Shown here: piece after piece, positions 1,206 to 39,792 of the stretch
Layout: each line of letters opens with the position of its first letter
Numbering within the stretch: the first letter of the stretch is position 1
Origin: a virus
Direction: 5' to 3' (one strand)
DNA: 39,792 nt
Virus record (IMG/VR): IMGVR_UViG_3300043409_002136
Location: 1-39,792 of that record
Translations under genes and position numbers: made by a program
The notes under the pieces: model-generated
Database searches by the model: none
What the model was told of the DNA's origin: nothing
Seen by the model: the letters and a program-made list of their open reading frames with translations, nothing else

Positions 1206-1241
1206 TTTTTAGTTTTTTTGAGTGCGGTTCTTCAAGCTGAC

Positions 1242-1373: not shown

Positions 1374-1400
1374 GATGGGGTTTTCACAAAAACTGATAAA

Positions 1401-1625: not shown

Positions 1626-1631
1626 CCTTGC

Positions 1632-1762: not shown

Positions 1763-1823
1763 GCTGGTGCGGTTTTGAAGCACTAATTTTAAATCAATAA
1801 CTAAAGCAATAATTAAATAAAAT

Positions 1824-2439: not shown

Positions 2440-2445
2440 AAAGAT

Positions 2446-2661: not shown

Positions 2662-2679
2662 CACTTTCGTAGCACTTGC

Positions 2680-2773
2680 ATACAACGTTATCGGGCTTGG
2701 CGAAGTGCCGCTACTCGAAACTTAAATTTTAGCACTAATTGTCCTGCGGCATTTTGCCAAACCCGTGTTATGG
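2680..2773 (+). repeat. attC site 5
   Basis: R'' ATACAAC at 2680-2686, R' GTTATGG at 2767-2773. Arms GGGCTTGGCGAAGTGCCGC and GCGGCATTTTGCCAAACCC pair. Shorter class, 94 bp. Confidence 0.92.
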
Positions 2774-2822
2774 GATAGTTTTAAAAACCTTTTAGGGTGG
2801 GCATTTAAACGATAAATTAAAA

Positions 2823-3239: not shown

Positions 3240-3270
3240 CGGTGCGGTGGGAAAAGGTTTTTAAAATTTC

Positions 3271-3346
3271 CCATAACGTTAAAACTACACGCTGGTTGCC
3301 TATTTATTCCAATGCTTCGGCAACTAGCTTGTAGTGATTGTTATAT
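3271..3346 (+). repeat. attC site 6 (short class)
   Basis: R'' CCATAAC at 3271-3277 (complement of GTTATGG that opens the cassette), R' GTTATAT at 3340-3346. Arms ACTACACGCTGGTTGCC and GGCAACTAGCTTGTAGT pair. 76 bp. Confidence 0.9.
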
Positions 3347-3390
3347 TCTCGGCTTTTTTTCACACAATTATTAATCAATAAAATACAAAT

Positions 3391-3624
3391 ATGACACTAA
3401 AAGAAAAATTTGAAGAAGTAGAAATTATGTTTGAAAACCAAACAGGTAAATTAAAATACGATGAATTATGCGAAGCACCAAATGAATGTGTAAAAATAGC
3501 CAAAGACTATGTTAATGAACAAATTGAAAAAATATGCGATTCAGACAACCTTTCTAAAATTATCTATTCAAAATCATTTGCGGAAGCAAGGAGAATAATT
3601 AGAACTTTATTACAGCAAGAGTAG
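3391..3624 (+). CDS. Helical cassette protein, unknown
   Basis: 77 residues, acidic and helical, beginning MTLKEKFEEVEIMFENQTGK and ending RIIRTLLQQE. It resembles small helical accessory proteins of Bacteroidota phages in size and composition. It is the last gene of the array; its cassette ends at the orphan R'' (3654-3660). Confidence 0.6.
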   Translation: MTLKEKFEEVEIMFENQTGKLKYDELCEAPNECVKIAKDYVNEQIEKICDSDNLSKIIYSKSFAEARRIIRTLLQQE

Positions 3625-3653
3625 CTTTGGTTACAAAGTTGCTCGAAGCTGGA

Positions 3654-3660
3654 ATATAAC
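3654..3660 (+). repeat. Orphan R'' at the array's distal end
   Basis: ATATAAC at 3654-3660, preceded by GGA, is complementary to the cassette's own 5' end (GTTATATTC at 3340). No arms or R' follow; the sequence passes into phage backbone. The last attC therefore appears truncated. Confidence 0.6.
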
Positions 3661-3691
3661 TAATGGCTACAACTTAAAAATGTATTACAAA

Positions 3692-3874
3692 ATGGCTAAG
3701 ATACTTGTAAAAACAAAGGTTATACGTATAACTCAAATACAACACGATACTTTAAAAAAGATGAAAAGTTATAAAGTTGACGTGGGGCATTTTATAAGAC
3801 AAGCAATAGCTGAGAAAATAAAAAGAGATTATAAAGATTTGATTCCTAAACAAAAAAATGAATGTACTTTTTAA
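3692..3874 (+). CDS. Ribbon-helix-helix-like DNA-binding protein
   Basis: 60 residues from the ATG at 3692 (an in-frame ATG lies four codons upstream at 3680). The pattern RITQIQHDTLKKMKSYKVDV followed by GHFIRQAIAEKIKRDY matches the RHH fold: a beta strand, a helix, a turn with a small residue, and a helix beginning 'FIRxAI'. Such proteins repress by binding operators as dimers. It lies directly between the array end and the terminator at 3877, transcribed in the array direction. Similar small proteins are encoded at 30411 and 32200. Target unknown. Confidence 0.6.
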   Translation: MAKILVKTKVIRITQIQHDTLKKMKSYKVDVGHFIRQAIAEKIKRDYKDLIPKQKNECTF

Positions 3875-21924: not shown

Positions 21925-22458
21925 TTACTTAATTTTACTTAATTTTTTTTCGATTTGACTCTTTGTAATATCAAAATATTGTTTGTCAAAAATTACATTA
22001 TAAGCAATGTTTTTAATTAAATCATATTTTAAAATATCCCCCTTTGCTAAATTGTCGATCATATTTAAGTATCCAAATTTATTTAAGTTGTTAATTCCTG
22101 ATTGAATCATTTTAATATCAGGGTCACTTGTTAAATATTTACTTTCTAATTCGTTAATTATTTTTATTTCATCAATTATCCAAAGAATAAAAGATATAGC
22201 TTTATCTATTGCAATATTTTGAATATCTGAAATAAAATAGTTGTGTCCCCTGTCTTTTAAAATTAAAAAAAATAAAGTTTCAAAATCGTTCTTTAAAAAT
22301 AGCTCGGGTAAAGTTTCTTTTACAAATCCCCATTTGCAATAAATAAGACTTTCAAAGTCAAAATTAAGTAAAATACTTGAGCGTTTACCATTTTTGACTA
22401 AAAAATTAAAATCATCTTGAGAAATTAGTTGTAATTGTTTATTAATTGATATATCCAC
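21925..22458 (-). CDS. Structural-region protein, unknown
   Basis: 177 residues, mostly helical (FETLFFLILKDRGHNYFISD; FILWIIDEIKIINELESKYL). Overlaps the end of the terminase gene by 17 bp, so is translated with it. Probably head-tail joining or assembly protein by position; the sequence does not name it. Confidence 0.55.
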   Translation of the reverse strand: MDISINKQLQLISQDDFNFLVKNGKRSSILLNFDFESLIYCKWGFVKETLPELFLKNDFETLFFLILKDRGHNYFISDIQNIAIDKAISFILWIIDEIKIINELESKYLTSDPDIKMIQSGINNLNKFGYLNMIDNLAKGDILKYDLIKNIAYNVIFDKQYFDITKSQIEKKLSKIK

Positions 22459-23653
22459 CGCCTGTGCGTTTTAATTTAGGTTTTCCTACTAAATCCCAAA
22501 AAACATACCCTATGGGGTCAAGATGATGGTTATAATCATCTATTGGGGTTTGACTTTTTTTGTCGTGCCAAACATAATTATTCAATTCTTTTATAATATT
22601 TATGCTTGAAGGATCAACTATTATTTCCCAATCTTGCATCAATGCTATACGATCAATTATTTTTGGCTTCTCAATTCCTTTGATAATTAAACCCCTTGAT
22701 TTCAATTCTGAAATTAGTCGAGGCTCAGCACTATCGGCAACAATTAAACTTTTCCCTGCGTAAATTTTATTATAGTCAAATATCTGGGAGGTTGTTAAAC
22801 CTGACTGGTGTAAAAATTCTTTTACAAAAATACGCTTATTTTTAGAATCAATTGAAACTTTATCTAAAGTCGTGGGGTCAATGCTGAATCCGTAATCCTG
22901 ACCAAAAACAGAAACTGAATGCTCTTCAAAATCTGCAATTCGCCAATTAGTAAAAACAACTCCTTCGGCTTTGTTCAGCCATCCCCCTAGTATTTGATGT
23001 TTATATTTTTCAGGGTTTTTGATTTGCATTTTCTCAACCTCATTGATAAATGATTGGTCAATATTTTCTATATTGTCAAGGTAAGTTGTATGAATGTAGG
23101 TGACATCATCTTTAGTGCCGTTAAATCCCTCTTGAACGCCTTTGTCTTCAAAGAACTTTTTATAAATCCAATGCTCTTTTGTTGTTGGGTTAAGTATTAG
23201 AATAATACGGTTTTGTTTGCCTTTTTGCCTTATTGAAAGATTTATTTTGTCGAAAGTAGTTTCATCTGTAAGCTCCTCGGCTTCGTCTAAAACCCACGTT
23301 GTAACCCCCTGCAATGATTTTAAATTTGCAGTTTGATCTCCTGAAGATGTTTTAATTCCTTTGAATATAATTTCGCTTCCTGAATCAATATTTAAAATAT
23401 CTGATTTGTTTATTTGAAATGAAGTATTGATATTTAACAAATCAATTTTTTGCTTAAACTCTGGAATGATTGAAAGATGGGCACTTGTCATTGTTTGCCT
23501 TGTGAATAAAATTTTATGCCCACTTTCAAAAGATAAAAGGCTGGTAAATCTACCAACCTCAAATGATTTTCCACTGCCTCTGCCACCTGTTAAAATAAAA
23601 TATCTAGTATTATTACCTAGATTATTCCAAACTTTGCTGTGTTTCTTTATCAT
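22442..23653 (-). CDS. terL: Terminase large subunit
   Basis: 403 residues. N-terminal ATPase: Walker A GGRGSGKS at 23-30, Walker B TWVLDEAEELT at about 113-123, and a coupling segment ILILNPT. C-terminal RNase H-like nuclease: FGQDYGFSIDPTTL, IVADSAEP, and the terminal 'DDYNHHLDPIGYVFWDL' carrying the last catalytic Asp. Drives DNA into the prohead and cuts the concatemer. Length is at the short end of the PBSX/Terminase_3 group. Its start overlaps the small-subunit gene by 32 bp. Confidence 0.93.
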   Translation of the reverse strand: MIKKHSKVWNNLGNNTRYFILTGGRGSGKSFEVGRFTSLLSFESGHKILFTRQTMTSAHLSIIPEFKQKIDLLNINTSFQINKSDILNIDSGSEIIFKGIKTSSGDQTANLKSLQGVTTWVLDEAEELTDETTFDKINLSIRQKGKQNRIILILNPTTKEHWIYKKFFEDKGVQEGFNGTKDDVTYIHTTYLDNIENIDQSFINEVEKMQIKNPEKYKHQILGGWLNKAEGVVFTNWRIADFEEHSVSVFGQDYGFSIDPTTLDKVSIDSKNKRIFVKEFLHQSGLTTSQIFDYNKIYAGKSLIVADSAEPRLISELKSRGLIIKGIEKPKIIDRIALMQDWEIIVDPSSINIIKELNNYVWHDKKSQTPIDDYNHHLDPIGYVFWDLVGKPKLKRTGGGYIN

Positions 23654-30616: not shown

Positions 30617-30985
30617 ATGAATAAACTTTCAAAAAATACCAAATTGCCCCAATGCGACAAAACCGCTGTTAGCAAATCGTTCTTGCTTTCGGGTAAATGT
30701 CAGCAGGATTTTTACGATTATTGCGTAGAAAATAAAGATAGAATGTTTGGAAGATTATTAGGAGATGAAGAAGATGTTTTAGATGAATTGAGTTATTTAT
30801 TTTCAATTTCTGTTTATCCCTTAATGATTCAGTTTTTAGACACAAAACAATATAAAGGCGAACCTTTATATTCAATGTGTTTCAGTTATTTTTATAAATT
30901 CAAAATTCAAAGTCAAAGTCAATTTGATATTTGGATTCAATCAATTGAAAAAGCAAATGAACTTTATAACGATAACGCTTTTTAG
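30617..30985 (+). CDS. First cassette protein, unknown
   Basis: 122 residues from ATG 30617 (a TTG three codons upstream is also in frame). The first 18 residues are encoded by the half-site, so the start codon lies outside the mobile part. The body is helical and acidic (QQDFYDYCVENKDRMFGRLL; EDVLDELSYLFSISVYPLM). No family recognised. As the first cassette it could be transcribed from the promoter at 30377. Confidence 0.6.
   Translation: MNKLSKNTKLPQCDKTAVSKSFLLSGKCQQDFYDYCVENKDRMFGRLLGDEEDVLDELSYLFSISVYPLMIQFLDTKQYKGEPLYSMCFSYFYKFKIQSQSQFDIWIQSIEKANELYNDNAF
30644..30674 (+). repeat. attC right half-site (array entry, attI-like position)
   Basis: TTGCCCCAATGCGACAAAAC, CGCT and R' GTTAGCA (30668-30674) match the right arm of other sites (for example 34145-34175) but no left arm or R'' is found in the 70 bp upstream. 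It is either a truncated attC or the array's primary insertion site. Confidence 0.65.
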
Positions 30986-30991
30986 AATGTT

Positions 30992-31127
30992 TGCTAACGT
31001 TTCGTGGCTTTGTCTTGTTGCCTAAAAAATAAGACATAATCTTTAAATTAAAAAACAGAAAATGAAAACACAAAATGAAAATCAAATTGATGACCAAAAC
31101 GGCAATAAATCAAAACCAATGTTAGTG
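30992..31127 (+). repeat. attC site 7
   Basis: R'' TGCTAAC at 30992-30998, R' GTTAGTG at 31121-31127. Arms GTGGCTTTGTCTTGTTGCC and GGCAATAAATCAAAACCAA pair. Start codon of the next gene lies in the centre (31062). 136 bp. Confidence 0.9.
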
Positions 31128-31436
31128 GCAGGTTTTTTGACTTCCAATAAAATTTATAGAAAATATATGTTTATGTATGGAATATTGTCGGTTTTATACG
31201 TTCTTGAATATTTCGAGTTTGAAGAAAATTACGAGGAATGCCAAAAGATTATTGATGCTATAAAAGAGCAAGAAAAAGCACTTAATACTACTTTATTTTC
31301 AACGATAACAACCGAAACTATAAAAGAAGTAGTTGAGAGTTATAAAAAATTCAATCTTACTGGTAAAAATGCAATTGAGAATAGTAAATATTATTCAACT
31401 TTAATTCTGAAAGAGATTGAATGCACTTTCGTTTAA
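31062..31436 (+). CDS. Cassette protein with attC-encoded N-terminus, unknown
   Basis: 124 residues. Residues 1-20 (with NGNKSKPML) come from the attC and resemble the leaders at 166 and 33307; the crossover falls between codons 20 and 21. The body begins LVAGFLTSNKIYRKYMFMYG and is helical (EECQKIIDAIKEQEKALNTT). No known family. The cassette's own 5' part has no start codon near the boundary, so the leader is probably the real start. Confidence 0.6.
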   Translation: MKTQNENQIDDQNGNKSKPMLVAGFLTSNKIYRKYMFMYGILSVLYVLEYFEFEENYEECQKIIDAIKEQEKALNTTLFSTITTETIKEVVESYKKFNLTGKNAIENSKYYSTLILKEIECTFV

Positions 31437-31442
31437 ACTTGC

Positions 31443-31558
31443 TTGTAACGTCCTAGTGATTGGCGAAGAAGCGGATAAATAAGCCTAAATTTTAAAGACA
31501 CAAAACAAATTATTGAATTAATAAACTAACCCGCTTTTTTGCCAAACACTTGTTATAG
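31443..31558 (+). repeat. attC site 8
   Basis: R'' TTGTAAC at 31443-31449, R' GTTATAG at 31552-31558. Arms GTGATTGGCGAAGAAGCGG and CCGCTTTTTTGCCAAACAC pair. 116 bp. Confidence 0.88.
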
Positions 31559-31589
31559 GCAGGATGGGTTTTTAAAACGAAAAATTATT

Positions 31590-31949
31590 ATGGGATTAGA
31601 CACTTCACACAATTGTTGGCACGGACGTTATTCATTTTTTAACAGATTTAGATATTCTTTAGGTCATCAAATAGGAATTGATTTAGATGATTATTATGGA
31701 TATGGTAAAACAGGAGTAAAAGATTTAACAAAAATTGAACACGAATTAATGCCTTTATTTAATCATTCAGATTGCGATGGAATATTAACAGTTGAAGAAT
31801 CAAAAAAAATTGTAATCGGTTTGAATAAGGTTTTACAAAACTTTAATGATAAAATAGAATATCATTATGATTTTAAAGAAAATATAATTCAATTTCGAGA
31901 TGGTTGTTTAGATGCTATTGAACGAAATGAGGAAGTAGATTTTCATTAA
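31590..31949 (+). CDS. Cassette protein, unknown (119 aa)
   Basis: 119 residues from the ATG after aaaattatt; a longer reading from 31539 begins in the attC and is less likely. Starts MGLDTSHNCWHGRYSFFNRF and contains 'HELMPLFNHSDCDGILTVEESKKI', a pattern like small proteins in Bacteroidota phages that carry an H-S-D-C-D-G segment. Function unknown. It shares its cassette (31552-32353) with two very small genes that have their own promoter. Confidence 0.65.
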   Translation: MGLDTSHNCWHGRYSFFNRFRYSLGHQIGIDLDDYYGYGKTGVKDLTKIEHELMPLFNHSDCDGILTVEESKKIVIGLNKVLQNFNDKIEYHYDFKENIIQFRDGCLDAIERNEEVDFH

Positions 31950-32045
31950 TAACGTAAATTTAGCCGTATTTGTTTGATTATCAATGAAAAGTAAAATAAT
32001 TTAAAAATAAATCACTTTTTATTTTAATATATCATATATATAGTA

Positions 32046-32053
32046 TATCTTTA
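32046..32053 (+). promoter_or_regulatory. Internal cassette promoter
   Basis: TATCTTTA followed by CC, close to TAnnTTTG and nearly identical to the element at 37409 (TATCTTTAC). It precedes the 32087 gene by 34 bp. The -33 element is not clear. Confidence 0.5.
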
Positions 32054-32086
32054 CCTCATGATTAATAACAAATAAAACATACGATT

Positions 32087-32200
32087 ATGAAAACTTTAAC
32101 AATTGAACAAAAAGAGCAAGAATTAAGAAATATTAATTTTTTCGTTGGTGGTTTAACTGATGAAGCAATTGAATACTATTATAACAAGTTAATTGCATAA
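32087..32200 (+). CDS. 37-residue micro-protein
   Basis: MKTLTIEQKEQELRNINFFV then GGLTDEAIEYYYNKLIA. Overlaps the next start by TAATG, so the two are probably translated together. Preceded by its own promoter. No family recognised. Confidence 0.5.
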   Translation: MKTLTIEQKEQELRNINFFVGGLTDEAIEYYYNKLIA

Positions 32201-32340
32201 TGAAAAAAATAATAGATATACCAAACGAAATACTTCAAGAACTAAAAATACTTGCAGTAAAATCTAACAAAGACCTTAAAAACTTTATTCAAGACGAACT
32301 TAAAAAAATTGTCGAAAACTCTCAATCGAAGCAGTCTTAA
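32200..32340 (+). CDS. RHH-like micro-protein
   Basis: 46 residues: MKKIIDIPNEILQELKILAV, SNKDLKNFIQDELKKIVEN. This fits the RHH fold (strand 'KKIIDIP', helix, 'NKDLKNFI' turn-helix) of antitoxin-type regulators. Forms a two-gene unit with 32087-32200, an arrangement common for toxin-antitoxin or autoregulated pairs in cassettes; no toxin motif is visible in the partner. Confidence 0.6.
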   Translation: MKKIIDIPNEILQELKILAVKSNKDLKNFIQDELKKIVENSQSKQS

Positions 32341-32346
32341 TATGGC

Positions 32347-32469
32347 TTATAACGTTGGGTGCTTGGCGAAGTGGCTGAACCGAATGTTGAATATAATTAC
32401 TAAACTTAATAATTAAAACGAATGTCAATAGTAGTACAAAACGGCAATATTGCCAATACCGTGTTATCG
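32347..32469 (+). repeat. attC site 9
   Basis: R'' TTATAAC at 32347-32353, R' GTTATCG at 32463-32469. Arms GGTGCTTGGCGAAGTGGC and GCAATATTGCCAATACC pair. Start codon of the cREC gene is inside (32422). 123 bp. Confidence 0.85.
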
Positions 32470-32871
32470 GATGTTTTTCTTTTTCTCGATGATATTCGTG
32501 AACCTGAACACGCCTTTGAATACACAAAACAAGAAATGTTCCTAAAACAAAAATGGCAAGTTGTAAGGAATTTTGATGAGTTCAAAAGTCATATTGAAAC
32601 AAACGGAATGCCTATTTTTATTTCGTTTGACCACGACTTAGCCGATACTCACTACACGCCCGAACACTTATGGACTGATTATGATAAATCAAAAGAATGG
32701 CAAGATAAACAAGTCCATAAAGAAAAGACTGGTTATGAATGTGCAATGTGGTTAGTAGATTTTTGCATAGACAATAATTTGCAATTACCTAAATACTATT
32801 GTCATTCAATGAACCCTGTCGGTAAAGATAAAATTGTCAGTTTATTACGGTCTTTCCAAAATAGCCACTAA
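32422..32871 (+). CDS. Cyclic-phosphate-processing receiver-like (cREC) domain protein
   Basis: 149 residues. After an attC-encoded leader of 14 residues the domain reads VFLFLDDIREP, WQVVRNFDEFKSHIETNGMP, IFISFDHDLADTHY, TGYECAMWLVDFCIDNNLQLP and HSMNPVGKDKI. These are the conserved blocks of the cREC domain, a receiver-like fold proposed to process cyclic nucleotide or cyclic phosphate ligands, with paired aspartates in LDD and DHD. Complete. The stop lies in its own degenerate R''. A signalling or anti-defence role in a phage cassette is inference. Confidence 0.8.
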   Translation: MSIVVQNGNIANTVLSDVFLFLDDIREPEHAFEYTKQEMFLKQKWQVVRNFDEFKSHIETNGMPIFISFDHDLADTHYTPEHLWTDYDKSKEWQDKQVHKEKTGYECAMWLVDFCIDNNLQLPKYYCHSMNPVGKDKIVSLLRSFQNSH

Positions 32872-32998
32872 AGTTTCGCAGCTTTGAGATGGTGGGGAAA
32901 AATAAAACCTAGTCTTTCGGTTGAACACGAAATTGAAAGATACAAAAAAAACATTGAATTAAACCTAATCTAGCAATAGCGTGTAATTGCTGTTATAA
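32866..32998 (+). repeat. attC site 10, degenerate and mosaic
   Basis: R'' position reads CACTAAA (32866-32872) instead of AAC, R' GTTATAA at 32992-32998. The left arm GCTTTGAGATGGTGGGG is the type of site 2, but the right arm (GCAATAGCGTGTAATTGCTG) is that of another type, so they do not pair. Probably inactive. Confidence 0.65.
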
Positions 32999-33022
32999 GC
33001 TGTGTTTTCAGCACTAAATATT

Positions 33023-33235
33023 ATGAAAATTCAAGTAAAATTAGATTACAACGACAAAATTTATTTATCAAATACAACAGAATGCAATCAAAATGATGTT
33101 TCAGAAGCTAAAAATTTAATGGAACAAATTGCTCAAGGTAAAATAACATATTTATCAATTCAAAGTGGTTTTGAAGAATATTACTTTACAAAAGAAGTTT
33201 TAGAAAAATCAATTATAACGGTTATCGTAACATAG
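33023..33235 (+). CDS. Small cassette protein, unknown
   Basis: 70 residues from ATG 33023. MKIQVKLDYNDKIYLSNTTE, then helix SEAKNLMEQIAQGKI, then YLSIQSGFEEYYFTKEVLEK and SIITVIVT. The ending resembles small beta-alpha-beta proteins of Bacteroidota phages with 'F.S......YYF.kevl..SIi.v.v'. Function unknown. Confidence 0.6.
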   Translation: MKIQVKLDYNDKIYLSNTTECNQNDVSEAKNLMEQIAQGKITYLSIQSGFEEYYFTKEVLEKSIITVIVT

Positions 33236-33236
33236 A

Positions 33237-33372
33237 CACTAACGGTTCCCTGTCTTTGTCTTGTTGCCGATAAAATAAGACCTAATCTTTAAATTTAAAA
33301 CAGAAAATGAAAAGTACAAAACAATCATCAAATAAAGCCGAAAACGGGAATAAATCAAAACCACTGTTAGCC
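33237..33372 (+). repeat. attC site 11
   Basis: R'' CACTAAC at 33237-33243, R' GTTAGCC at 33366-33372. Left arm CTGTCTTTGTCTTGTTGCC faces GGGAATAAATCAAAACCAC. Start codon of the next gene inside (33307). 136 bp. Confidence 0.88.
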
Positions 33373-33621
33373 GTAGTTATTGTAGATAAAACAGGCAGTC
33401 AATTGAATAATGGGGATATAATTAATCTTCATCAAAAGGTTAATGGGGAAAACTTATTTGTTGTTTTAGACGTTTATAATTTAGATGTGAGATATGCTCA
33501 TAATTTAGCATACAAATATCAATATGATATGTTTGAATTATTATCTCCTTCAAAATTAAACGGAGATATTGATTTTGAAATAGTTGGTAATTTATATCCG
33601 CATTTGGAAAATTACCGCTAA
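33307..33621 (+). CDS. Cassette protein with attC-encoded N-terminus, unknown
   Basis: 104 residues; the first 20 come from the attC (NGNKSKPLL just before the crossover). The body, VVIVDKTGSQLNNGDIINLH then KVNGENLFVVLDVYNLDVRY, looks like a small beta-rich domain with an 'L..GDIi..' opening such as YopX or KOW-like folds have. Stop codon lies in its R'' (CGCTAAC). Function unknown. Confidence 0.62.
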   Translation: MKSTKQSSNKAENGNKSKPLLAVVIVDKTGSQLNNGDIINLHQKVNGENLFVVLDVYNLDVRYAHNLAYKYQYDMFELLSPSKLNGDIDFEIVGNLYPHLENYR

Positions 33622-33692
33622 CGTTTCGCCGCTTTGTACTGCCACCTATGCGGTTTAGTGGATTCGGCGGTAGTTCAAGACTGCTGTTAGTA
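33616..33692 (+). repeat. attC site 12 (short class)
   Basis: R'' CGCTAAC at 33616-33622, R' GTTAGTA at 33686-33692. Arms GCCGCTTTGTACTGCCACC and GGCGGTAGTTCAAGACTGC pair. 77 bp. Confidence 0.88.
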
Positions 33693-33693
33693 G

Positions 33694-33807
33694 ATGGACG
33701 GGTTGCTAAAGATAAAACATAGTGAAGTTAAGGCATGTGACATTCCGAAACCGTATCGACCTTTACGGCTATGTTTTTTAAAATATAAATTAATTTATAA
33801 AAACTAA
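33694..33807 (+). CDS. Possible 37-residue ORF at the cassette start
   Basis: ATG two bases after R', reading MDGLLKIKHSEVKACDIPKP and ending KYKLIYKN, stop 5 bp before the next ATG. It could be a short leader coupled to 33813-34070. No independent support; may be chance. Confidence 0.25.
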   Translation: MDGLLKIKHSEVKACDIPKPYRPLRLCFLKYKLIYKN

Positions 33808-33812
33808 ATAAA

Positions 33813-34070
33813 ATGAAAAACAAAGAATTAAAAACATTATGGAAAGTTGCAAAATCATTTTGGATCAGCGCTACATTGGTTTGGATTGTTGAAACTACAA
33901 TTTTTCTAATTATTGAAGGATGGCATTTAAAAGCCACGCATCCAGTAGAAATATGGATTGATAAATTGGTTGGTGATATGTGGAATTTTGCAAGATGGAT
34001 AACAGTATTGATTTGTATTCATTATATTATCAAATTGAATATGAAAGGGTCTAAAGAAACGGAATCGTAG
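33813..34070 (+). CDS. Two-pass membrane protein, unknown
   Basis: 85 residues with hydrophobic segments at about 17-36 (FWISATLVWIVETTIFLIIE) and 59-75 (FARWITVLICIHYIIKL), Trp-rich, with a charged tail. Only clear gene of its cassette (33686-34083). The small size and membrane character match other cassettes here. No family recognised. Confidence 0.65.
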   Translation: MKNKELKTLWKVAKSFWISATLVWIVETTIFLIIEGWHLKATHPVEIWIDKLVGDMWNFARWITVLICIHYIIKLNMKGSKETES

Positions 34071-34076
34071 TCTTGC

Positions 34077-34175
34077 TACTAACGTTTTTCGGCTTTGTGT
34101 CTGTTTGCCCCTTGCACAAAGTTTCAAGTTACCACAAATGTTGATGGGGCAAATAGCACAAAACCGATGTTATAC
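34077..34175 (+). repeat. attC site 13
   Basis: R'' TACTAAC at 34077-34083 (complement of GTTAGTA that opens the cassette), R' GTTATAC at 34169-34175. Arms CGGCTTTGTGTCTGTTTGCC and GGCAAATAGCACAAAACCG pair very well. 99 bp. Confidence 0.92.
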
Positions 34176-34214
34176 GCTGGGCGGATTATCAGCAGAATTT
34201 AAAAAAGGAAAAAA

Positions 34215-34577
34215 ATGAGTTTAGATGTTTATTTAACACGAAAAAAATGGGTAAGCTACGATGAAGGTAAAACCCACACAGAAGAAAACGAAGAAGTTTA
34301 TTGGGCAAACATTACCCATAACTTATGTAAAATGGCAGGTGAAGCAGGAATTTACGAAGCACTTTGGCGACCAGAAGAAATTGGTAAAACAAAGGCAAGT
34401 GAAATTGTGAAATTACTTGAAAAAGGATTATTTGATTTAAAAGCAAGACCTGAACATTTTGAAACTTTTAATTCACTCAATGGTTGGGGAATGTATCAAC
34501 ATTTTGTTCCTTTTGTCGAAAAGTATTTAGAAGCCTGTAAAGAATATCCTGATTCTGTTATCGAAGTGTCAAGGTAG
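34215..34577 (+). CDS. Widespread phage/bacterial protein of unknown function
   Basis: 120 residues: MSLDVYLTRKKWVSYDEGKT, then 'YWANITHNLCKMAGEAGIYEALWRPEEIG', 'KASEIVKLLEKGLFDLKARPEHFETFN', 'GWGMYQHFVPFVEKYLEACKEYPDSVIEVSR'. I recognise this as a conserved hypothetical family found in many phages and bacteria ('NITHNL.KMA..AGIY..LWRPEE'), without known activity. The purine-rich aaaaaggaaaaaa precedes the ATG. Complete. Confidence 0.8.
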   Translation: MSLDVYLTRKKWVSYDEGKTHTEENEEVYWANITHNLCKMAGEAGIYEALWRPEEIGKTKASEIVKLLEKGLFDLKARPEHFETFNSLNGWGMYQHFVPFVEKYLEACKEYPDSVIEVSR

Positions 34578-34583
34578 CCTTGC

Positions 34584-34714
34584 AGGTAACGTTTGTCAGC
34601 CTTATTTATTATGGGATTATGAAAACGAAACTTTAAATTAAGACAAAATGAAATTAGAAAAACTAAACTTTGATTTATACGAAATGCCTAGCTTGAATAT
34701 AACCGATGTTATAA
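34584..34714 (+). repeat. attC site 14 (arms degenerate)
   Basis: R'' AGGTAAC at 34584-34590, R' GTTATAA at 34708-34714. Arms pair only partly. Start codon of the next gene at 34648 lies inside. 131 bp. Confidence 0.7.
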
Positions 34715-34947
34715 GCTTTTTTATTTCGGAGCAACAAAAAAAGGAGGAAGAAATTTTCACTTCTGCTTTGCGAATAATGGCAGAACCGCCAATTAAAGGC
34801 GATATTACAAAAGGTAAAGTAAGGTGGAGAGGAATAAGAATTGTGAAATATGACGATGGCTTTAAATATACAAAATGGTTAGAGCAGAGAGGAAATCAAA
34901 TTAGCCCGAAAATTGTCTTTACTGCCATTATCGGAAATGGCTTATAA
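34648..34947 (+). CDS. Cassette protein with attC-encoded N-terminus, unknown
   Basis: 99 residues; the first 20 (MKLEKLNFDLYEMPSLNITD) come from the attC. The body is helical then basic (VRWRGIRIVKYDDGFKYTKW; LEQRGNQISPKIVF). Stop codon lies in its R'' (TTATAAC). The crossover is in a different codon phase from the 166/31062/33307 group. Function unknown. Confidence 0.6.
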   Translation: MKLEKLNFDLYEMPSLNITDVISFFISEQQKKEEEIFTSALRIMAEPPIKGDITKGKVRWRGIRIVKYDDGFKYTKWLEQRGNQISPKIVFTAIIGNGL

Positions 34948-35074
34948 CGTTTGCGTGTATGGGAAGTGGCGGAGAGTTTGCCGAATACCTCCAAGTACAA
35001 ACTGATTTTTAAATTAATAAACCAAACTCAAAAACACAAAACTAACCCGCCATTTCTTATACACGTTGTTAGTG
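34942..35074 (+). repeat. attC site 15
   Basis: R'' TTATAAC at 34942-34948 (exact complement of the cassette's opening GTTATAA), R' GTTAGTG at 35068-35074. Arms GCGTGTATGGGAAGTGGCGG and CCGCCATTTCTTATACACG pair. 133 bp. Confidence 0.93.
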
Positions 35075-35095
35075 GATGGCTTTATATTCGGAATT

Positions 35096-35221
35096 ATGAT
35101 AAAAGTATTAAAATCAACTGCAACTAATTTTAAGGAATTAGAAAAATTAAATGTTTTTTTAGAAAAAAGTAAAATTGAACTACACCAAACAGTTTTACAT
35201 CCAAAACGGATGGGTAGGTAA
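35096..35221 (+). CDS. 41-residue ORF overlapping 35175-35438
   Basis: MIKVLKSTATNFKELEKLNV, helical, ending PKRMGR. It starts 22 bp after R' and overlaps the next ORF by 47 bp in another frame. It may be a coupled leader, or the two may be one gene broken by a frameshift. Confidence 0.4.
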   Translation: MIKVLKSTATNFKELEKLNVFLEKSKIELHQTVLHPKRMGR

Positions 35222-35438
35222 TGCAATTCTTTGGTGGGGAATTGACAGTAAAGGTTACACCACCGAAATTGATAAGGCTGGGCGATATACCTATGAAGAA
35301 GCCAAAAAAATTATTCAGCGACCAGAAGATAAGGCTTGGGAGTGTAAGCACGTTGATGAGTGTTTGAAAGCCCACAAAAGAATTATTGATGGGCAGTATT
35401 TGGATAGTAAAAAATGTCTGAAAGGACGGAGAATGTAG
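35175..35438 (+). CDS. Conserved phage-type protein, TTG start or frameshifted
   Basis: 87 residues from TTG 35175 (no ATG available). 'KQFYIQNGWVGNAILWWGIDSKGYTTEIDKAGRYTYEEAKKII' and 'DKAWECKHVDECLKAHKRIID' match a small hypothetical family familiar from phages ('YIQNG..GNailWW..dskGYtt.i..A..yt.eeA..i'). The N-terminus looks natural just at the TTG, so the domain is complete. Translation probably depends on the overlapping ORF upstream. Confidence 0.65.
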   Translation: MNYTKQFYIQNGWVGNAILWWGIDSKGYTTEIDKAGRYTYEEAKKIIQRPEDKAWECKHVDECLKAHKRIIDGQYLDSKKCLKGRRM

Positions 35439-35445
35439 CAATGAC

Positions 35446-35579
35446 TGCTAACGTTTCGCAGCTACACGAGGTTTGGGAAAAAGTACGCCTTAATTTTCGG
35501 TTGAAGACTGAACTTTAAAATACAAAACCAAGTTTCAGTTAAAGACCGAAACCCAAATCTCGTGTAACTGCTGTTAGCC
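35446..35579 (+). repeat. attC site 16
   Basis: R'' TGCTAAC at 35446-35452, R' GTTAGCC at 35573-35579. Arms GCAGCTACACGAGGTTTGGG and CCCAAATCTCGTGTAACTGC pair. 134 bp. Confidence 0.93.
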
Positions 35580-35672
35580 GTTCGGTTTTTTATTTATTAC
35601 AATTTTCACGTTTCATTTTTCGGTTACGCTTCCGCACCGCTTTTAAGTCGGAAGTATTTTAAATTAATTATT

Positions 35673-35780
35673 ATGTACGTTTCAACATTATTATTCGTTT
35701 TTACTATCGTTTCTTTCTGCAATCTCGCTTTTATTGTTGGTTATATTCTTGGTGGTATTTATAGGAACAAAAGAAGATGA
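35673..35780 (+). CDS. 35-residue membrane peptide
   Basis: MYVSTLLFVFTIVSFCNLAF then IVGYILGGIYRNKRR: one transmembrane helix and a basic end. Preceded by the same conserved leader as 701 and 38254. It overlaps the 3' end of the minus-strand gene 35691-36146. The toxin-like look (short hydrophobic, basic tail, antisense partner) is suggestive only. Confidence 0.45.
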   Translation: MYVSTLLFVFTIVSFCNLAFIVGYILGGIYRNKRR

Positions 35781-36146
35781 TTTTTTTGTTTTTTCTATTA
35801 CAGAATAAACTTCAAAAGTTTTAGCCCAATACCCAATTCCAAAGCCAAAAATACAAAACCCAAATAAAATGCTAATTAATTCAAAATTATTTTTATCAGA
35901 TATGAAATTGTTATTTTTTATTTTTTTAGATCCGTTTACTTTTATAAAATCTTTTATTCTTTTAGCGTGTTCAGAAAACTTACCAGTACCTAATTGGTTT
36001 ATTTCAAAGGCAAGATTAGAATTTTCGGGTAAATGTAAATATGCAAAGTCCATAAACTCTAAAATATTATTTTTCTCTTCGTTTTTTAAATCACTAAAAA
36101 GTTCAATATATGAATCACATTTTTTTAAAATATCTTTTTTTTTCAT
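35691..36146 (-). CDS. Membrane-anchored helical protein in a reverse-oriented cassette
   Basis: 151 residues from ATG 36146. Soluble helical N-terminal part (KKKDILKKCDSYIELFSDLK; FAYLHLPENSNLAFEINQLG), one transmembrane segment at about 100-118 (ELISILFGFCIFGFGIGYWA), and a polar Ser/Asn/Thr tail. It shares a 5' leader (cagtttacagaaccgaaac) with the minus-strand genes at 38272 and 39424. Orientation is opposite to the attC sites. Unknown function. Confidence 0.65.
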   Translation of the reverse strand: MKKKDILKKCDSYIELFSDLKNEEKNNILEFMDFAYLHLPENSNLAFEINQLGTGKFSEHAKRIKDFIKVNGSKKIKNNNFISDKNNFELISILFGFCIFGFGIGYWAKTFEVYSVIEKTKKSSSFVPINTTKNITNNKSEIAERNDSKNE

Positions 36147-36170
36147 TTCGTTTCGGTTCTGTAAACTGAC

Positions 36171-36301
36171 AGCTAACGTTTTGTGGCTTGGCGAAGGCAA
36201 GGATTAGAAGTACAAATGCTTGTTTTATTCCAAATGCTCAATAGAGTACCAAATCTGAAAGTTAGCAATAAAGCCTTTCTTTCATAAAACCCTTGTTAGC
36301 C
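36171..36301 (+). repeat. attC site 17
   Basis: R'' AGCTAAC at 36171-36177, R' GTTAGCC at 36295-36301. Left arm GTGGCTTGGCGAAGGC; right arm GCCTTTCTTTCATAAAACCC pairs only partly. 131 bp. Confidence 0.75.
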
Positions 36302-36358
36302 GTTCGTTCTTTTTCGTTCGGTTTTAAAATTAAAATTATTAACAATTAAAATATAAAA

Positions 36359-36802
36359 ATGAAATTAGAAATTAGGCACTTAACACCTTACTTCCCTTAT
36401 GGGTTAGAATGTATGGTAAGCGATTATTACAATGGTTATAATGGCACAAATGAAACAAAAAAAGCCAAATTAAACGCTATTTGGTCTGATAATAGTTATT
36501 CTTTTTTTGATTTAGTGGAAAGCGAAAGAGGTTTTGAAAAGATAATGCCTATACTTCGTCCTTTATCTCAAATTAAAGAATATTTTGAGCCAATATTTGA
36601 AACAGACAAGGAAGTAAATGAGTTTTTGTCTTACGAAGCAACTACGCCTTTTTCTGTCGAAGAAATATTGAACTATAAGTTTGAATACTTGCCTTATGGA
36701 ACATGTCAAGTTTTATTAAAACATCATTTTGATTTGTTTGGTCTAATTGGGGAAGGGCTTGCTGTCGATATTAACACGCTGTCGGTTCAGAATGACGGCT
36801 AA
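36359..36802 (+). CDS. Conserved Bacteroidota phage protein, unknown
   Basis: 147 residues: MKLEIRHLTPYFPYGLECMV, 'LRPLSQI', 'YLPYGTCQVLLKHHFDLFGLIGEGLAVDINTL'. The opening 'I.HL.PYFPYGL' and the closing 'LPY...Q.LLKHHFD.FGLI..GLA.dIN' are recurrent in small proteins of phages and prophages of Flavobacteriia and Bacteroidia. Stop codon lies in R'' (GGCTAAC). A partial second copy opens the window (1-101). Confidence 0.78.
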   Translation: MKLEIRHLTPYFPYGLECMVSDYYNGYNGTNETKKAKLNAIWSDNSYSFFDLVESERGFEKIMPILRPLSQIKEYFEPIFETDKEVNEFLSYEATTPFSVEEILNYKFEYLPYGTCQVLLKHHFDLFGLIGEGLAVDINTLSVQNDG

Positions 36803-36931
36803 CGTCTCGTGGCTTTGTGATGTTGCCGAAAAAACACACACTAAACTTTAAATTTAAGACAAATGTTTGAGATACAAAACCAACTTTCAGTTAAGCCCGA
36901 AGTAGGCAATAGCACAAAACCGCTGTTATCT
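36797..36931 (+). repeat. attC site 18
   Basis: R'' GGCTAAC at 36797-36803 (complement of the cassette opening GTTAGCC), R' GTTATCT at 36925-36931. Left arm GTGGCTTTGTGATGTTGCC; right arm GGCAATAGCACAAAACCGC. Bases up to 36827 are repeated at 1-126. Confidence 0.9.
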
Positions 36932-37258
36932 TCTCGGCTTTTTAAATTTCGATTTTACGACACAACTTTAAAAAAAATGTGTTATAGAAATCCTTTAACT
37001 TATGATTTTTGTGTTAAAGATATAATCCCTATGCAATTTACAGGGTTATTAGACAAAAATGGAATTAAAATTTTTGAAGGCGATATAATAGAATATACGC
37101 AACATCATTTTAATACGGATATGATAAAAACAAAACGAAAAGTCGTTGAGTGGAAATATGATAAATGGGGCGTTTATGAAACTAATGCAGGAGAAAGTGA
37201 TATACAAATTTTAGGGAATATTTTTGAGAATGTGGATTTATTGCAAGACGTTCTTTAA
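36863..37258 (+). CDS. YopX family protein
   Basis: 131 residues. After an attC-encoded leader (about 21 residues) come FKFRFYDTTLKKMCYRNPLT, 'MQFTGLLDKNGIKIFEGDIIEYT', 'KRKVVEWKYDKWGVYE' and 'IQILGNIFENVDLLQ'. These are the YopX hallmarks: M-Q-[FY]-TGL-D-K-[NG]G..I-[YF]-EGDI, then V.W....G.., then I-GNI-[FY]-ENP-[ED]-LL. YopX-like proteins are common phage and prophage accessory proteins with no settled biochemical role. Crossover falls between codons 21 and 22. Confidence 0.88.
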   Translation: MFEIQNQLSVKPEVGNSTKPLLSSRLFKFRFYDTTLKKMCYRNPLTYDFCVKDIIPMQFTGLLDKNGIKIFEGDIIEYTQHHFNTDMIKTKRKVVEWKYDKWGVYETNAGESDIQILGNIFENVDLLQDVL

Positions 37259-37264
37259 GCTGGA

Positions 37265-37341
37265 ATATAACGTTCAAGCTACACGCTGGTTGCCTAGCAC
37301 GTTCGCTTAGTTTCGGCGGTAGGTTGTAGTGGTTGTTGCCT
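37265..37341 (+). repeat. attC site 19 (short class)
   Basis: R'' ATATAAC at 37265-37271, R' GTTGCCT at 37335-37341 (by alignment with site 6). Arms centred on GCTACACGCTGGTTGCC and CGGTAGGTTGTAGT. 77 bp. Confidence 0.8.
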
Positions 37342-37386
37342 GCTTTTATTTTTTTATAAATATTTTAAAAATAATTACATTTTTTC

Positions 37387-37416
37387 TTGTTTATATAAAA
37401 ATTAGTCGTATCTTTA
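37387..37416 (+). promoter_or_regulatory. Internal cassette promoter
   Basis: TTG (37387-37389), 19 bases, TATCTTTA (37409-37416); close to the Bacteroidota consensus. It lies 39 bp before the ATG at 37455, so the cassette carries its own expression signal. Confidence 0.7.
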
Positions 37417-37454
37417 CACCATAGAAACAAACAATAATCTAAAAAATAGAAATT

Positions 37455-37679
37455 ATGAAAGAAATTAACGAAATATTAAATACTCTAACAGGTAAAAAAA
37501 TGATAGCTAATTTATCAATGTGTAAAGACATGGATAAATCAAAACTGTCTGAAATGTTATGGATTGATGAATTGCCATTGCAACAACAAGAGTTGTTCGA
37601 TACAATATATCAATTAGTTGATATTACAAGACGTGATCTTGCTATTAGATTGATTAACAATAAGCCTATTGTAAAATAG
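37455..37679 (+). CDS. Cassette protein with own promoter, unknown
   Basis: 74 residues: MKEINEILNTLTGKKMIANL, 'CKDMDKSKLSEMLWIDELPLQQQELFDTIYQLVD', ending IRLINNKPIVK. Helical, possibly a small regulator. First gene of a cassette (37335-38047) that also holds a remnant reading frame and a 56-residue ORF. The cassette's promoter and multi-ORF content resemble toxin-antitoxin cassettes, but no family is evident. Confidence 0.6.
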   Translation: MKEINEILNTLTGKKMIANLSMCKDMDKSKLSEMLWIDELPLQQQELFDTIYQLVDITRRDLAIRLINNKPIVK

Positions 37680-37834
37680 GCTTTAAAAACTTAACAATTA
37701 AAAAAAAATTAAAAGCAGGCAACATAATTAAAATATTAAAATATCCTTTAAATATTAATATTCCTAATCAAACTATAACTAAAATTAAAGATAGTTATTT
37801 TTGGAGTGAAAACTTTAGCGGAGATAACTTATAA
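37673..37834 (+). pseudogene. Open frame without a standard start
   Basis: An open frame of about 50 codons overlapping the end of 37455-37679 contains LKAGNIIKILKYPLNINIPN then TKIKDSYFWSENFSGDNL. It has protein-like composition but no ATG, GTG or TTG near its beginning. It may be decayed, start at ATA/ATT, or be read by frameshifting from the upstream gene. Confidence 0.3.
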
Positions 37835-37868
37835 TAAATTTAATATCATATAGTTTTTATTTCATAAT

Positions 37869-38039
37869 ATGCAAAGACAATATATAATAATACTAATTAA
37901 ACCCTTTAGCGAACCAATAGCAAGGGGTAATTTTAAAAAGCTATGTGATCAATTCAATTTACCTTATCATAGCTTAAAGATGCTTAAATTTCCAATTAAG
38001 TACAAAGATTGGATTATTTACAAAGTCGAGTTTAAATAG
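37869..38039 (+). CDS. 56-residue ORF, unknown
   Basis: MQRQYIIILIKPFSEPIARG, 'NFKKLCDQFNLPYHSLKMLK', ending YKDWIIYKVEFK. The middle part resembles a helix-turn-helix (LCDQFNLPYHSLK) and the end a short strand pair, as in small phage DNA-binding proteins. Ends just before R'' (38041). Tentative. Confidence 0.5.
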   Translation: MQRQYIIILIKPFSEPIARGNFKKLCDQFNLPYHSLKMLKFPIKYKDWIIYKVEFK

Positions 38040-38040
38040 G

Positions 38041-38173
38041 CACTAACGTCCCGGTGCTTGACGAGGTTTGGGATAAAGTACGCCTTAATTTTCGGTTGAA
38101 GACTGAACTTTAAAACACAAAACCAACTTTAAATTAAGCCTAAAACCCAAATCTTGCCAAACACCTGTTATGC
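38041..38173 (+). repeat. attC site 20
   Basis: R'' CACTAAC at 38041-38047, R' GTTATGC at 38167-38173. Arms GGTGCTTGACGAGGTTTGGG and CCCAAATCTTGCCAAACACC pair. 133 bp. Confidence 0.93.
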
Positions 38174-38253
38174 CTTCGGTTTTTTTATTTATTTCAATTT
38201 TCGGTTACACTTCTGCACCGTTTAAGTCGGAAGTATTTTTAAATTAATAAGTT

Positions 38254-38346
38254 ATGAAAAGACGTTTAAAATTATTCTTTTTCATTTGCGCTTTTACTCT
38301 TGTTTTTGCTCTTATTTGCATAATATGTTTCAATTGCAAAAAATAA
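38254..38346 (+). CDS. 30-residue membrane peptide
   Basis: MKRRLKLFFFICAFTLVFAL then ICIICFNCKK: basic start, one hydrophobic helix, cysteines. Preceded by the conserved leader also seen before 701 and 35673, and overlapping the 3' end of the minus-strand gene 38272-38748. Resembles type I toxin peptides in form only. Confidence 0.45.
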   Translation: MKRRLKLFFFICAFTLVFALICIICFNCKK

Positions 38347-38748
38347 AGCAAAAGTGATTAAAGGAAAAAAGTAGATTACTAAAAACCAATAGAAATATAT
38401 GTAAATATTAAATAAAAAACCAAGCGAATAAACTGTAAAAATCAACAAAGAAAGCCAAGTACAAAGTAATGAAATAGAGTTAGAAAACAAATCAATAACA
38501 TACCAATCTTCTTCCGAATTATCTTTTACCTCCTCGTCTGCTTTATAAAACATTGCAGATGTTAAAACAGTAGATACAAGACTTAAAACTATGCACATTG
38601 CTAACATTATTAAATTGTCAGCAGATTTATAAAATTCATTATTGAAAAGATAAATAGCAACGTACCAAAAAGGAATTATAAAGATGTTTAAAACTATTGC
38701 TCTTAGAGAACTATGTAAATTGTTTATTTCGTCTATTATTGATGACAT
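38272..38748 (-). CDS. Four-pass membrane protein in a reverse-oriented cassette
   Basis: 158 residues from ATG 38748 (an in-frame extension into the attC is possible). Four hydrophobic segments: AIVLNIFIIPFWYVAIYLF, LIMLAMCIVLSLVSTVLTSA, SISLLCTWLSLLIFTVYSLG and FYWFLVIYFFPLITFALFFA, and a lysine-rich tail. The soluble loop VKDNSEEDWYVIDLFSN links TM2 and TM3. Shares its 5' leader with 35691 and 39424 genes. Unknown function; membrane effectors of defence systems have similar size, but there is no motif to claim this. Confidence 0.65.
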   Translation of the reverse strand: MSSIIDEINNLHSSLRAIVLNIFIIPFWYVAIYLFNNEFYKSADNLIMLAMCIVLSLVSTVLTSAMFYKADEEVKDNSEEDWYVIDLFSNSISLLCTWLSLLIFTVYSLGFLFNIYIYFYWFLVIYFFPLITFALFFAIETYYANKSKNKSKSANEKE

Positions 38749-38778
38749 ATTTTCGGTGTTTCGGTTTTCTAAACTGAG

Positions 38779-38911
38779 GCATAACGTTTCGCAGCTACAA
38801 GCAGGCTGGGGCAAAGGAATCCTAAAATTTCAGTTGATGACTGATTTTAAAAATAAAAACCAGGCTTTGAATTAAACCTAAATCCCAGCTTGCTTGTAAT
38901 TGCTGTTGGCA
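38779..38911 (+). repeat. attC site 21
   Basis: R'' GCATAAC at 38779-38785, exact complement of GTTATGC opening the cassette; R' GTTGGCA at 38905-38911. Arms CAGCTACAAGCAGGCTGGGG and CCCAGCTTGCTTGTAATTGC pair. 133 bp. Confidence 0.94.
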
Positions 38912-38973
38912 AATCGGTTTTCTTTTTTCCACCGAATTAAGCGAAAAAAATTAACTTTACAAAAACAATAATT

Positions 38974-39480
38974 ATGAATTCAATTGAAACAAAAAAACAT
39001 ACAAAATATTCTTTAGAATTAATTTTTAACGAGGCTGATAAAATGTCTACGGATTTATTAGGTTATATTTCTGAAAACGTTAACAAGTCTTTTATATTAT
39101 TGGCAATTTATTTTTCAGTTTTGTCATTTTCTTTTTTTAAAATTATAGAAAATTATAATTTTTTGTATTCTTTATTGATAATCGGAACTTTATTCGGATG
39201 TTATGTTTTGAGAAAAAATATTTTTCCAAACACAATCTGCCTAAAAGGAGCACTTCCAGAAAATATGATACAAGATTACTTTTCTTCTTTTACTGAAGAA
39301 GATTTAGACAAAGAATATTTAGCTACACAAATAGAATCGTATAACTATGCAATGATTGAAAACAAAAAAACTATTGAAAAAATGGTAAATAGATTTAAAA
39401 AATCTATTTACATAGTTCTATTTTCATTCCTTCTTTTTGGTTTTATTTCCGCTTTGTTCTTGTTTACTGAATGTCTGTAA
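38974..39480 (+). CDS. Membrane protein with three hydrophobic segments, unknown
   Basis: 168 residues. N-terminal amphipathic helix (KYSLELIFNEADKMSTDLLG), two transmembrane helices at about 38-76 (SFILLAIYFSVLSFSFF; LYSLLIIGTLFGCYVL), a soluble loop with LPENMIQDYFSSFTEEDLDK, and a C-terminal TM (SIYIVLFSFLLFGFISALFL). This plan of helix, TM pair, loop, TM is seen in several small membrane effectors of bacterial immune and phage-exclusion systems, but no family match is claimed. Its end overlaps a minus-strand gene. Confidence 0.65.
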   Translation: MNSIETKKHTKYSLELIFNEADKMSTDLLGYISENVNKSFILLAIYFSVLSFSFFKIIENYNFLYSLLIIGTLFGCYVLRKNIFPNTICLKGALPENMIQDYFSSFTEEDLDKEYLATQIESYNYAMIENKKTIEKMVNRFKKSIYIVLFSFLLFGFISALFLFTECL

Positions 39481-39567
39481 CCTTGAAGTTGTATTTGGTA
39501 TTTGTGTAGTAGTCGACGGCTTTTGGGTCTGTGGATTATTACTACTTTGTTCCTTTTCTTTACTCAT
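39424..39567 (-). CDS. Short Ser/Thr/Gln-rich disordered protein
   Basis: 47 residues from ATG 39567: MSKEKEQSSNNPQTQKPSTT, ending SGNKTKKKE. Low-complexity and probably disordered. It has the same 5' leader (cagtttagagaaccgaaata) as the other minus-strand cassette genes, which argues that it is expressed. Overlaps the end of 38974-39480 on the opposite strand by 57 bp. Confidence 0.45.
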   Translation of the reverse strand: MSKEKEQSSNNPQTQKPSTTTQIPNTTSRLQTFSKQEQSGNKTKKKE

Positions 39568-39600
39568 AATATTTTCGGTATTTCGGTTCTCTAAACTGTT

Positions 39601-39734
39601 TACCAACGTCCTGTGGCTTTGTCTTGTTGCCGATAAAATAAGACCTAATCTTTAAATTAAAAACTAAAATGAAAACACAAACTGAAAATCAAATTGATAA
39701 CCAAAACGGCAATAAGTCAAAACCACTGTTAGCG
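39601..39734 (+). repeat. attC site 22
   Basis: R'' TACCAAC at 39601-39607 (complement of the cassette opening GTTGGCA with one change), R' GTTAGCG at 39728-39734. From 39666 onward identical to 163-289. Confidence 0.9.
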
Positions 39735-39792
39735 GCAGTTATTCTTCAATTAACTGGGCGTGGTTTTTCAAATAAAAATAGAGATAAAGTAA
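39666..39792 (+). repeat. 127-bp exact terminal overlap with 163-289
   Basis: Every base from 39666 to 39792 equals 163-289; the base before differs (T versus G). Likewise 1-126 equals 36702-36827 and the following base differs. Exact overlaps of about 127 bases point to de Bruijn graph branch nodes at the contig ends. Confidence 0.85.
39669..39792 (+). CDS. 5' part of a second copy of the 166-492 gene (contig end)
   Basis: Identical to 166-289, giving the first 41 codons with the attC-encoded leader (NGNKSKPLLA) and the cassette start. Cut by the contig end. In a circular reading this is the same gene as 166-492. Confidence 0.7.
   Translation, partial: MKTQTENQIDNQNGNKSKPLLAAVILQLTGRGFSNKNRDKV

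Follow-up and report, generated by a model that had tools for sequence, protein, structure and literature searches.

Integron-like cassette array and candidate docking site in a probably circular siphophage genome

The stretch of DNA analyzed here (the window), 39,792 bases long, is a virus record from IMG/VR. About a third of the genome is an array of cassettes, composed of attC-like hairpins and ORFs, that extends from ~30.6 kb through the contig ends to 3.66 kb; the integron-like nature of these cassettes is the point missing from the initial annotation. We read the evidence jointly as a circular siphophage carrying an integron-like array, with exchange at TAAC cores, a docking site, and a host recombinase that acts in trans, and we assign this reading a probability of roughly 0.75. 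Coordinates are on the + strand of the window unless marked (-).

Contig ends and genome structure

Maximal exact matching identified two repeat blocks that reach the first and last bases of the contig. Block A occurs at 36702–36827 (first copy) and at the contig start, 1–126 (second copy), with identity over 126 nt; block B occurs at 163–289 (first copy) and at the contig end, 39666–39792 (second copy), with identity over 127 nt. Block A at the contig start comprises the 3' end of a cassette gene and the left arm of a hairpin (the short-path hairpin, below), and block B at 163 comprises the right half of a hairpin and the start of the next cassette gene. The blocks are joined by a short path of 36 nt (127–162) and by a long path of 2,838 nt that contains four cassettes (36828–39665). 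Together with its flanks (120–178), the short path is identical to 31016–31074 over 59 nt. These repeat coordinates and this two-path graph had been given in the initial annotation, and both proved exact. Apart from these, the window contains just three exact direct repeats of at least 25 nt, with lengths of 59, 42, and 41 nt; all three fall within the array, and no exact inverted repeat of that minimum length was found in the window. A chance origin of the end repeats is ruled out by the length of the matches (126 and 127 nt), and a single terminal repeat is ruled out because the ends match internal blocks, not one another.

Repeats of 126 and 127 nt that reach the first and last base would be the branch footprint of a de Bruijn assembler with k of ~127. 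The assembler's path may be read as A, short path, B, backbone, A, long path, B, and then a stop, so that the contig would go once around a circularly mapping siphophage genome of ~39.5 kb, opened inside the array. Closing the end onto position 163 gives 39,503 bp, and the form with the short path would be 36,701 bp. The circle of about 39.5 kb proposed earlier is supported by inference from the sequence: joining 39665 to 163 restores an unbroken cassette and the 108-aa ORF to the right of the junction (166–492), which starts within a hairpin and is intact once the circle is closed, and the closed array would end at a boundary conserved in other phages. To the left of the junction, a 147-aa cassette gene (36359–36802) lies upstream of both paths.

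Based on PHROGs matches, the backbone encodes terminase, portal, head protease, tape measure, and endolysin families. The terminase large subunit (22442–23653, -) was assigned by PHROGs match and isolate comparison; among isolates, Nonlabens phages P12024L/S (Inhavirus) have the closest terminases, at 60.6% identity. The early region contains two AAA genes (Pfam AAA_24 and AAA_25). A large protein encoded at 7049–8761 (-) contains ~20 repeats of 27 nt (NTIGDNF-like) that are 60–77% alike, and it probably forms a repeat-fold tail fibre or spike.

Hairpin sites and cassette genes

The array occupies 30617–39792 and, after closure of the circle, continues at 1–3660. On the + strand, its hairpins have TAACG at the left foot and GTTA at the right foot. 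Candidate hairpins on this strand numbered 25 at a duplex energy of ≤-12 and 21 at ≤-15, compared with 2–9 and 0–3, respectively, in 10 shuffles; at -18, the array holds 20 of the 21 + strand sites and the backbone 1. The closed long form has 21 hairpin sites, including two weaker ones. With duplex values in parentheses, the sites ahead of the long path are site 1 at 30995–31125 (-22.7), site 2 at 31446–31556 (-32.7), site 3 at 32350–32467 (-22.2), site 4 at 32869–32996 (-11.2; weak, with an arm mismatch), site 5 at 33240–33370 (-18.0), site 6 at 33619–33690 (-20.6), site 7 at 34080–34173 (-30.5), site 8 at 34587–34712 (-13.0; weak), site 9 at 34945–35072 (-36.5), site 10 at 35449–35577 (-35.7), and site 11 at 36174–36299 (-18.7). 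Site 12 at 36800–36929 (-24.4) forms the left side of the long path and site 16 at 39604–39732 (-26.6) its right side, with site 13 at 37268–37327 (-21.1), site 14 at 38044–38171 (-26.1), and site 15 at 38782–38909 (-35.2) between them. Beyond the junction follow site 17 at 490–618 (-36.6), site 18 at 1245–1371 (-38.0), site 19 at 1635–1760 (-35.7), site 20 at 2683–2771 (-35.9), and site 21 at 3274–3344 (-30.3). The far end of the array, at 30617–30674, opens with the right arm of a hairpin and no left arm, and so looks cut off at the border with the phage.

Several hairpin sites in the same orientation with ORFs between them are what characterizes integron cassette arrays and clusters of attC sites lacking an integrase (CALINs), and the window shows this arrangement. 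Among 118 sites, less four on minority strands, the coding-strand form is more stable in 99 of 114 when judged by arms and in 91 of 114 as whole hairpins. Arm covariation was 0.64 for paired arms versus 0.46 for shuffled ones (77 of the 114 sites), a difference that is partly selection, as arm pairing was the criterion for choosing sites. Beside the core, the hairpins show a gap of 4–5 nt on one side only; the canonical attC layout has a two-sided spacer and extrahelical bases. A search of Rfam families returned 0 hits.

The array ORFs are small and mostly of unassigned function; the Pfam names over cut-off are cREC_REC (32422–32871) and YopX (36863–37258, with its start codon within hairpin 12). 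Starts inside hairpins also occur at, for example, 166, 31062, and 33307, and the genes concerned share an N-terminal GNKSKPLL-like stretch encoded by the hairpin arm. In an integron the gene lies 5' of its attC and is directed away from attI, whereas most ORFs in this array have the opposite direction. The segment at 37332–38097 shares 68% identity with a multi-gene cassette found in the Flavobacterium phages discussed below. A minority of cassettes carry the gene on the opposite strand; those at 35691–36200 (-), 38272–38814 (-), and near 39564–39606 have a common leader, CAGTTTAGARAACCGAAA, just inside the next core, which is perhaps a promoter. A different leader, TTTTCGGTTACGCTTCCGCACCG...AAGTCGGAA, lies behind the hairpin in three cassettes (629–689, 35603–35663, and ~38196–38246).

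Cassette movement in related isolates

Cultured Flavobacterium "Moomin" phages carry hairpins related to those of the window. We read 16 arrays out of 46 Moomin-group records (RefSeq duplicates included) and found whole-cassette differences between near-identical isolates: 439 bp of sniff9-1 are missing from sniff9-2, 506 bp of mumin6-2 are missing from mumin6-3, and in lillamy9-7 the 439-bp cassette, identical over 444 nt, is located at the far end of the array (the boundary) and not in the middle. Over all pairs, TAAC falls within the 5–15 nt overlap in 17 of 18 distinct junction contexts, which are not independent events, whereas random placing would give 0.49; in the remaining context, GTTAAC is adjacent. 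The array boundary accounts for 7 of the 18 contexts, with three distinct left neighbours. This movement was observed in the Moomin phages, not in the window's own phage. The suggestion in the initial annotation that the array is heterogeneous within the population is plausible, as single cassettes differ among near-identical isolates of related cultured phages.

The position of TAAC in 17 of the 18 contexts places the crossover at TAAC, in the left foot. The integron-type crossover AA/C (G/TT on the other strand; the slash marks the cut) is thus seen in related isolates, where overlaps of 5–15 nt locate TAAC and not a single bond, and the Moomin breakpoints rule out TAACG as an uncleaved hairpin end. 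According to the available part of PMC4792948, the integron integrase cleaves between A and C in the bottom-strand sequence 5'-AAC-3'. Combined with a crossover at the left foot, this cut makes the left foot the active core and most genes opposite in direction to those of ordinary cassettes. In the mechanism that we propose, the cassette unit would run C/G, hairpin, gene, TAA/C; and the hairpin would be an attC-like site cleaved at its 5' foot, so that the genes, which often begin within a hairpin, would face the opposite way from those of ordinary integrons. The array would gain and lose cassettes by site-specific exchange between TAAC cores and at an attI-like docking site beside the gene for phrog_25647.

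The ends of IS200/IS605 elements are hairpins with a fixed foot motif, a feature that the hairpins in the array resemble, and cassettes could instead be moved by an IS200/IS605-type single-strand transposase or by ordinary short-repeat recombination. Transposition of the IS200/IS605 kind involves a Y1 HUH transposase in cis and hairpins at both ends, and only one hairpin per cassette was observed. We consider either route quite unlikely: a single hairpin per cassette and a separate docking site suit attC and attI better than transposon ends, and homology of 5–7 nt is too short for RecA-type exchange, yet TAAC is found in 17 of the 18 contexts.

Array boundary and its gene

The end of the window's array, at 3657, reads TAACTAATGGC...ATGTATTAC, and next to it lies a gene for a 60-aa protein. 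This leader (3657–3688), a candidate attI-like docking site, consists of TAAC, 21 nt, and GTATTAC and is also found in other phages; the gene (3692–3874) belongs to phrog_25647, and its product is ribbon-helix-helix-like by prediction. The leader and the boundary gene also close the arrays of L049, L106, L102, L131, and L132; in L096 and L098 the leader is present and the boundary gene is broken. In Moomin phages, the boundary leader agrees only in part with those of the other phages, and cassette insertions occur at the equivalent boundary position. From this conservation and these insertions, the boundary is a candidate attI-like docking site at which new cassettes would enter.

A scan with the boundary protein matched 137 viral stretches; 80 were kept as boundary loci, and 72 of those have at least 1 kb of upstream sequence. 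Among these 72, a hairpin on the same strand as the boundary gene was found upstream in 68 and downstream in 5, and a hairpin on the opposite strand upstream in 14 and downstream in 3. The spacing TAAC-N21-GTATTAC is constant in 70 of 77 leaders. The same protein alignment, which does match virus records, gave 0 matches in 299 Flavobacteriaceae genomes, a search with no positive control from a cell genome. As to cargo, DNA methyltransferases are frequent, occurring in L133, L144, L146, and 19 of the 80 boundary loci.

All seven aligned boundary proteins match phrog_25647 (function unassigned), and five of the seven have a weak match to DUF6290. The structural model (pLDDT 77) has an extended start followed by two helices, a weak indication that the protein resembles ribbon-helix-helix proteins. 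In a test that did not start from this gene, with records of at least 20 kb picked by a hairpin pattern, the boundary gene was present in 18 of 36, three of which, directly or through relatives, had supplied rows of the alignment (G020, G016, and Moomin G648/G661), compared with 0 of 11 comparison phages. The boundary gene is thus common, not universal, in hairpin-bearing phages.

The short path

The initial annotation took the short path as a record of molecules that simply lack the cassettes in between. Such a clean loss would leave the entire hairpin of the downstream cassette, and a mosaic was found instead. The short-path hairpin (99–229; duplex value -21.8) follows site 12 up to base 126 (private bases included), site 1 over 120–178, and site 16 from 163; it therefore combines site 12's left arm and site 16's right arm with a loop that matches site 1 exactly over 59 nt. 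Its arms pair with each other at -21.8, whereas its left arm pairs with the right arm of site 12 at -26.1 and its right arm with the left arm of site 16 at -27.4. That the arms pair worse together than with the parental arms points to exchange inside hairpins.

Plain site-specific excision (attC12 × attC16) of four cassettes from the long form is an event of a kind present in Moomin phages. For the short path we regard it as very unlikely: long-form identity extends 22–23 nt beyond the TAACG core on the left and resumes 59 nt inside the right hairpin, and the left arm of site 16, which excision would keep as part of a whole site, is absent from the mosaic. The sequence is better accounted for by homologous recombination or strain mosaicism within the hairpin, or by a chimeric library molecule, than by clean excision. 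A chimera formed during library preparation or assembly between near-identical hairpins, with only the long form existing, would be in keeping with the likeness of sites 1, 5, 12, and 16 and with a three-part mosaic whose arms mismatch. It would, however, take two switches within ~60 nt; the overlap at each switch, 7 nt with site 12 and 16 nt between sites 1 and 16, falls far below the usual k, so that the assembler alone cannot have produced the mosaic; and a hairpin was exchanged with its gene retained between the Moomin phages snork9-1 and snork6-2. We rate a chimera as somewhat unlikely.

A third possibility, that the junction comes from another replicon (another phage, or a host array with two cassettes in common), draws on the fact that cassettes are common to different phages: L100 matches 98–491 at 73%, with the match ending at cores, and Moomin phages share 37332–38097 at 68%. 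Blocks A and B, unlike those shared cassettes, are 100% identical over 126 and 127 nt, and the contig continues directly into this phage's boundary and backbone, making another replicon an unlikely source. The exact pattern of the short junction had 0 matches in other viral contigs, a set that may miss near-identical records.

We infer that the short path is a real variant of the array, which would have arisen, or been altered later, by homologous exchange within near-identical hairpins rather than in a single clean excision. Single-strand annealing proteins occur among AAA_24 proteins, and the AAA_24 gene of the early region is a possible source of such exchange. In L139 (Moomin, 5' part), as in the snork9-1/snork6-2 pair, both hairpin arms are replaced jointly, with loop and gene unchanged; we know of no mechanism for such joint replacement.

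Recombinase

In the window, TIGR02249 and PF00589 each gave 0 matches, so that the integrase of a complete integron was not found there. No tyrosine recombinase was found in 20 of 30 array-bearing records, including the window and two complete Moomin genomes. Across 27 records, no phage-encoded integron integrase scored over the cut-off; the weak matches were Xer-like, and control genomes matched as well. A recombinase common to all array phages was also sought: among 12 genomes, the only family present in 12 of 12 was the boundary gene, whose presence is by construction in the nine genomes picked by it.

The recombinase would accordingly not be phage-encoded; it is probably a host tyrosine recombinase that acts in trans on single-stranded hairpins. 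TIGR02249 had no match at E ≤ 1e-40 in any of 199 genomes from the genus to which G021 (Flavobacterium succinicans) belongs, with the control also without a match at that cut-off. As these genomes have no canonical integron integrase by this search, Xer proteins are a candidate for the recombinase.

Distribution in viruses and cells

The hairpin pattern was found in 71 viral stretches versus 1 of 397 Flavobacteriaceae genomes, and a stricter pattern in 18 viral stretches versus 2 stretches of the genome collection; because the viral and cell collections differ in size and make-up, these counts show a tendency only. The sole contigs from cell genomes with the strict pattern are L107 (Flavobacterium succinicans) and L108 (a Patescibacteria MAG). 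In L107, a large ATPase/nuclease-like gene adjoins the hairpin pattern.

Relation to known systems

Integron cassettes in phages are already known. In the available part of Qi et al. 2023 (PMC9892861), CALINs are reported from virulent phages, and IntI1 used 5 of 6 tested phage attC sites. As in the window, these are attC-like arrays in lytic phages without an integrase, with methyltransferase cassettes, and one of the phages infects Bacteroidota (Polaribacter phage P12002L). In contrast, they are described there without a phage docking site, a linked gene, or movement between isolates, and no Flavobacterium phage is named in the available text (0 occurrences). The boundary gene is absent from P12002L, and it was not found in P12024L, one of the Inhavirus isolates with the closest terminase.

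Sedentary chromosomal integrons resemble the array in their many cassettes, related hairpins, AA/C (G/TT) crossover, and preferred docking at one end; they differ in that the window array has no intI, a different gene beside the docking site, and genes that run towards that site. The Moomin phages (Muminvirus and Lillamyvirus) have the same type of array, a homologous boundary gene (gp004), and a shared cassette, but a backbone unlike that of the window. The words "integron" and "attC" do not occur in the available part of Nilsson et al. 2020 (PMC7077304), which ties methyltransferase gene differences in Moomin phages to plating efficiency. CTXphi, as covered in the available part of PMC4792948, is likewise a phage without its own integrase and relies on host XerCD (tyrosine recombinases) acting on a folded single-stranded hairpin site; there, however, the whole phage integrates into dif, whereas here single cassettes move within phage genomes.

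In open-access journal articles on phages, integrons, attC, and Flavobacterium, we found no description of a docking site in a phage, of the gene beside it, of genes in reversed order, or of cassettes that moved between isolates; as far as this literature goes, these features are new.

Implications

Tentatively, and at less than even odds, these arrays may represent a viral gene-capture lineage equipped with a docking site of its own and with phrog_25647 as a small, dedicated DNA-binding protein. Its cassettes, frequently encoding DNA methyltransferases, would be inverted, with the hairpin in front, and would be shuffled by a recombinase taken from the host, possibly Xer. Such a lineage could be related to integrons as a viral sister group or as their ancestor. 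In the available part of Escudero et al. (PMC4792948), it is raised as speculation that integrons came from viruses, and a docking site confined to viruses, with a gene dedicated to it, makes that idea testable. In assemblies, arrays of this kind fragment contigs and conceal that a genome is circular. The exchange of single genes at a fixed site in lytic phages would account for their hypervariable regions and for fast change of anti-restriction genes.
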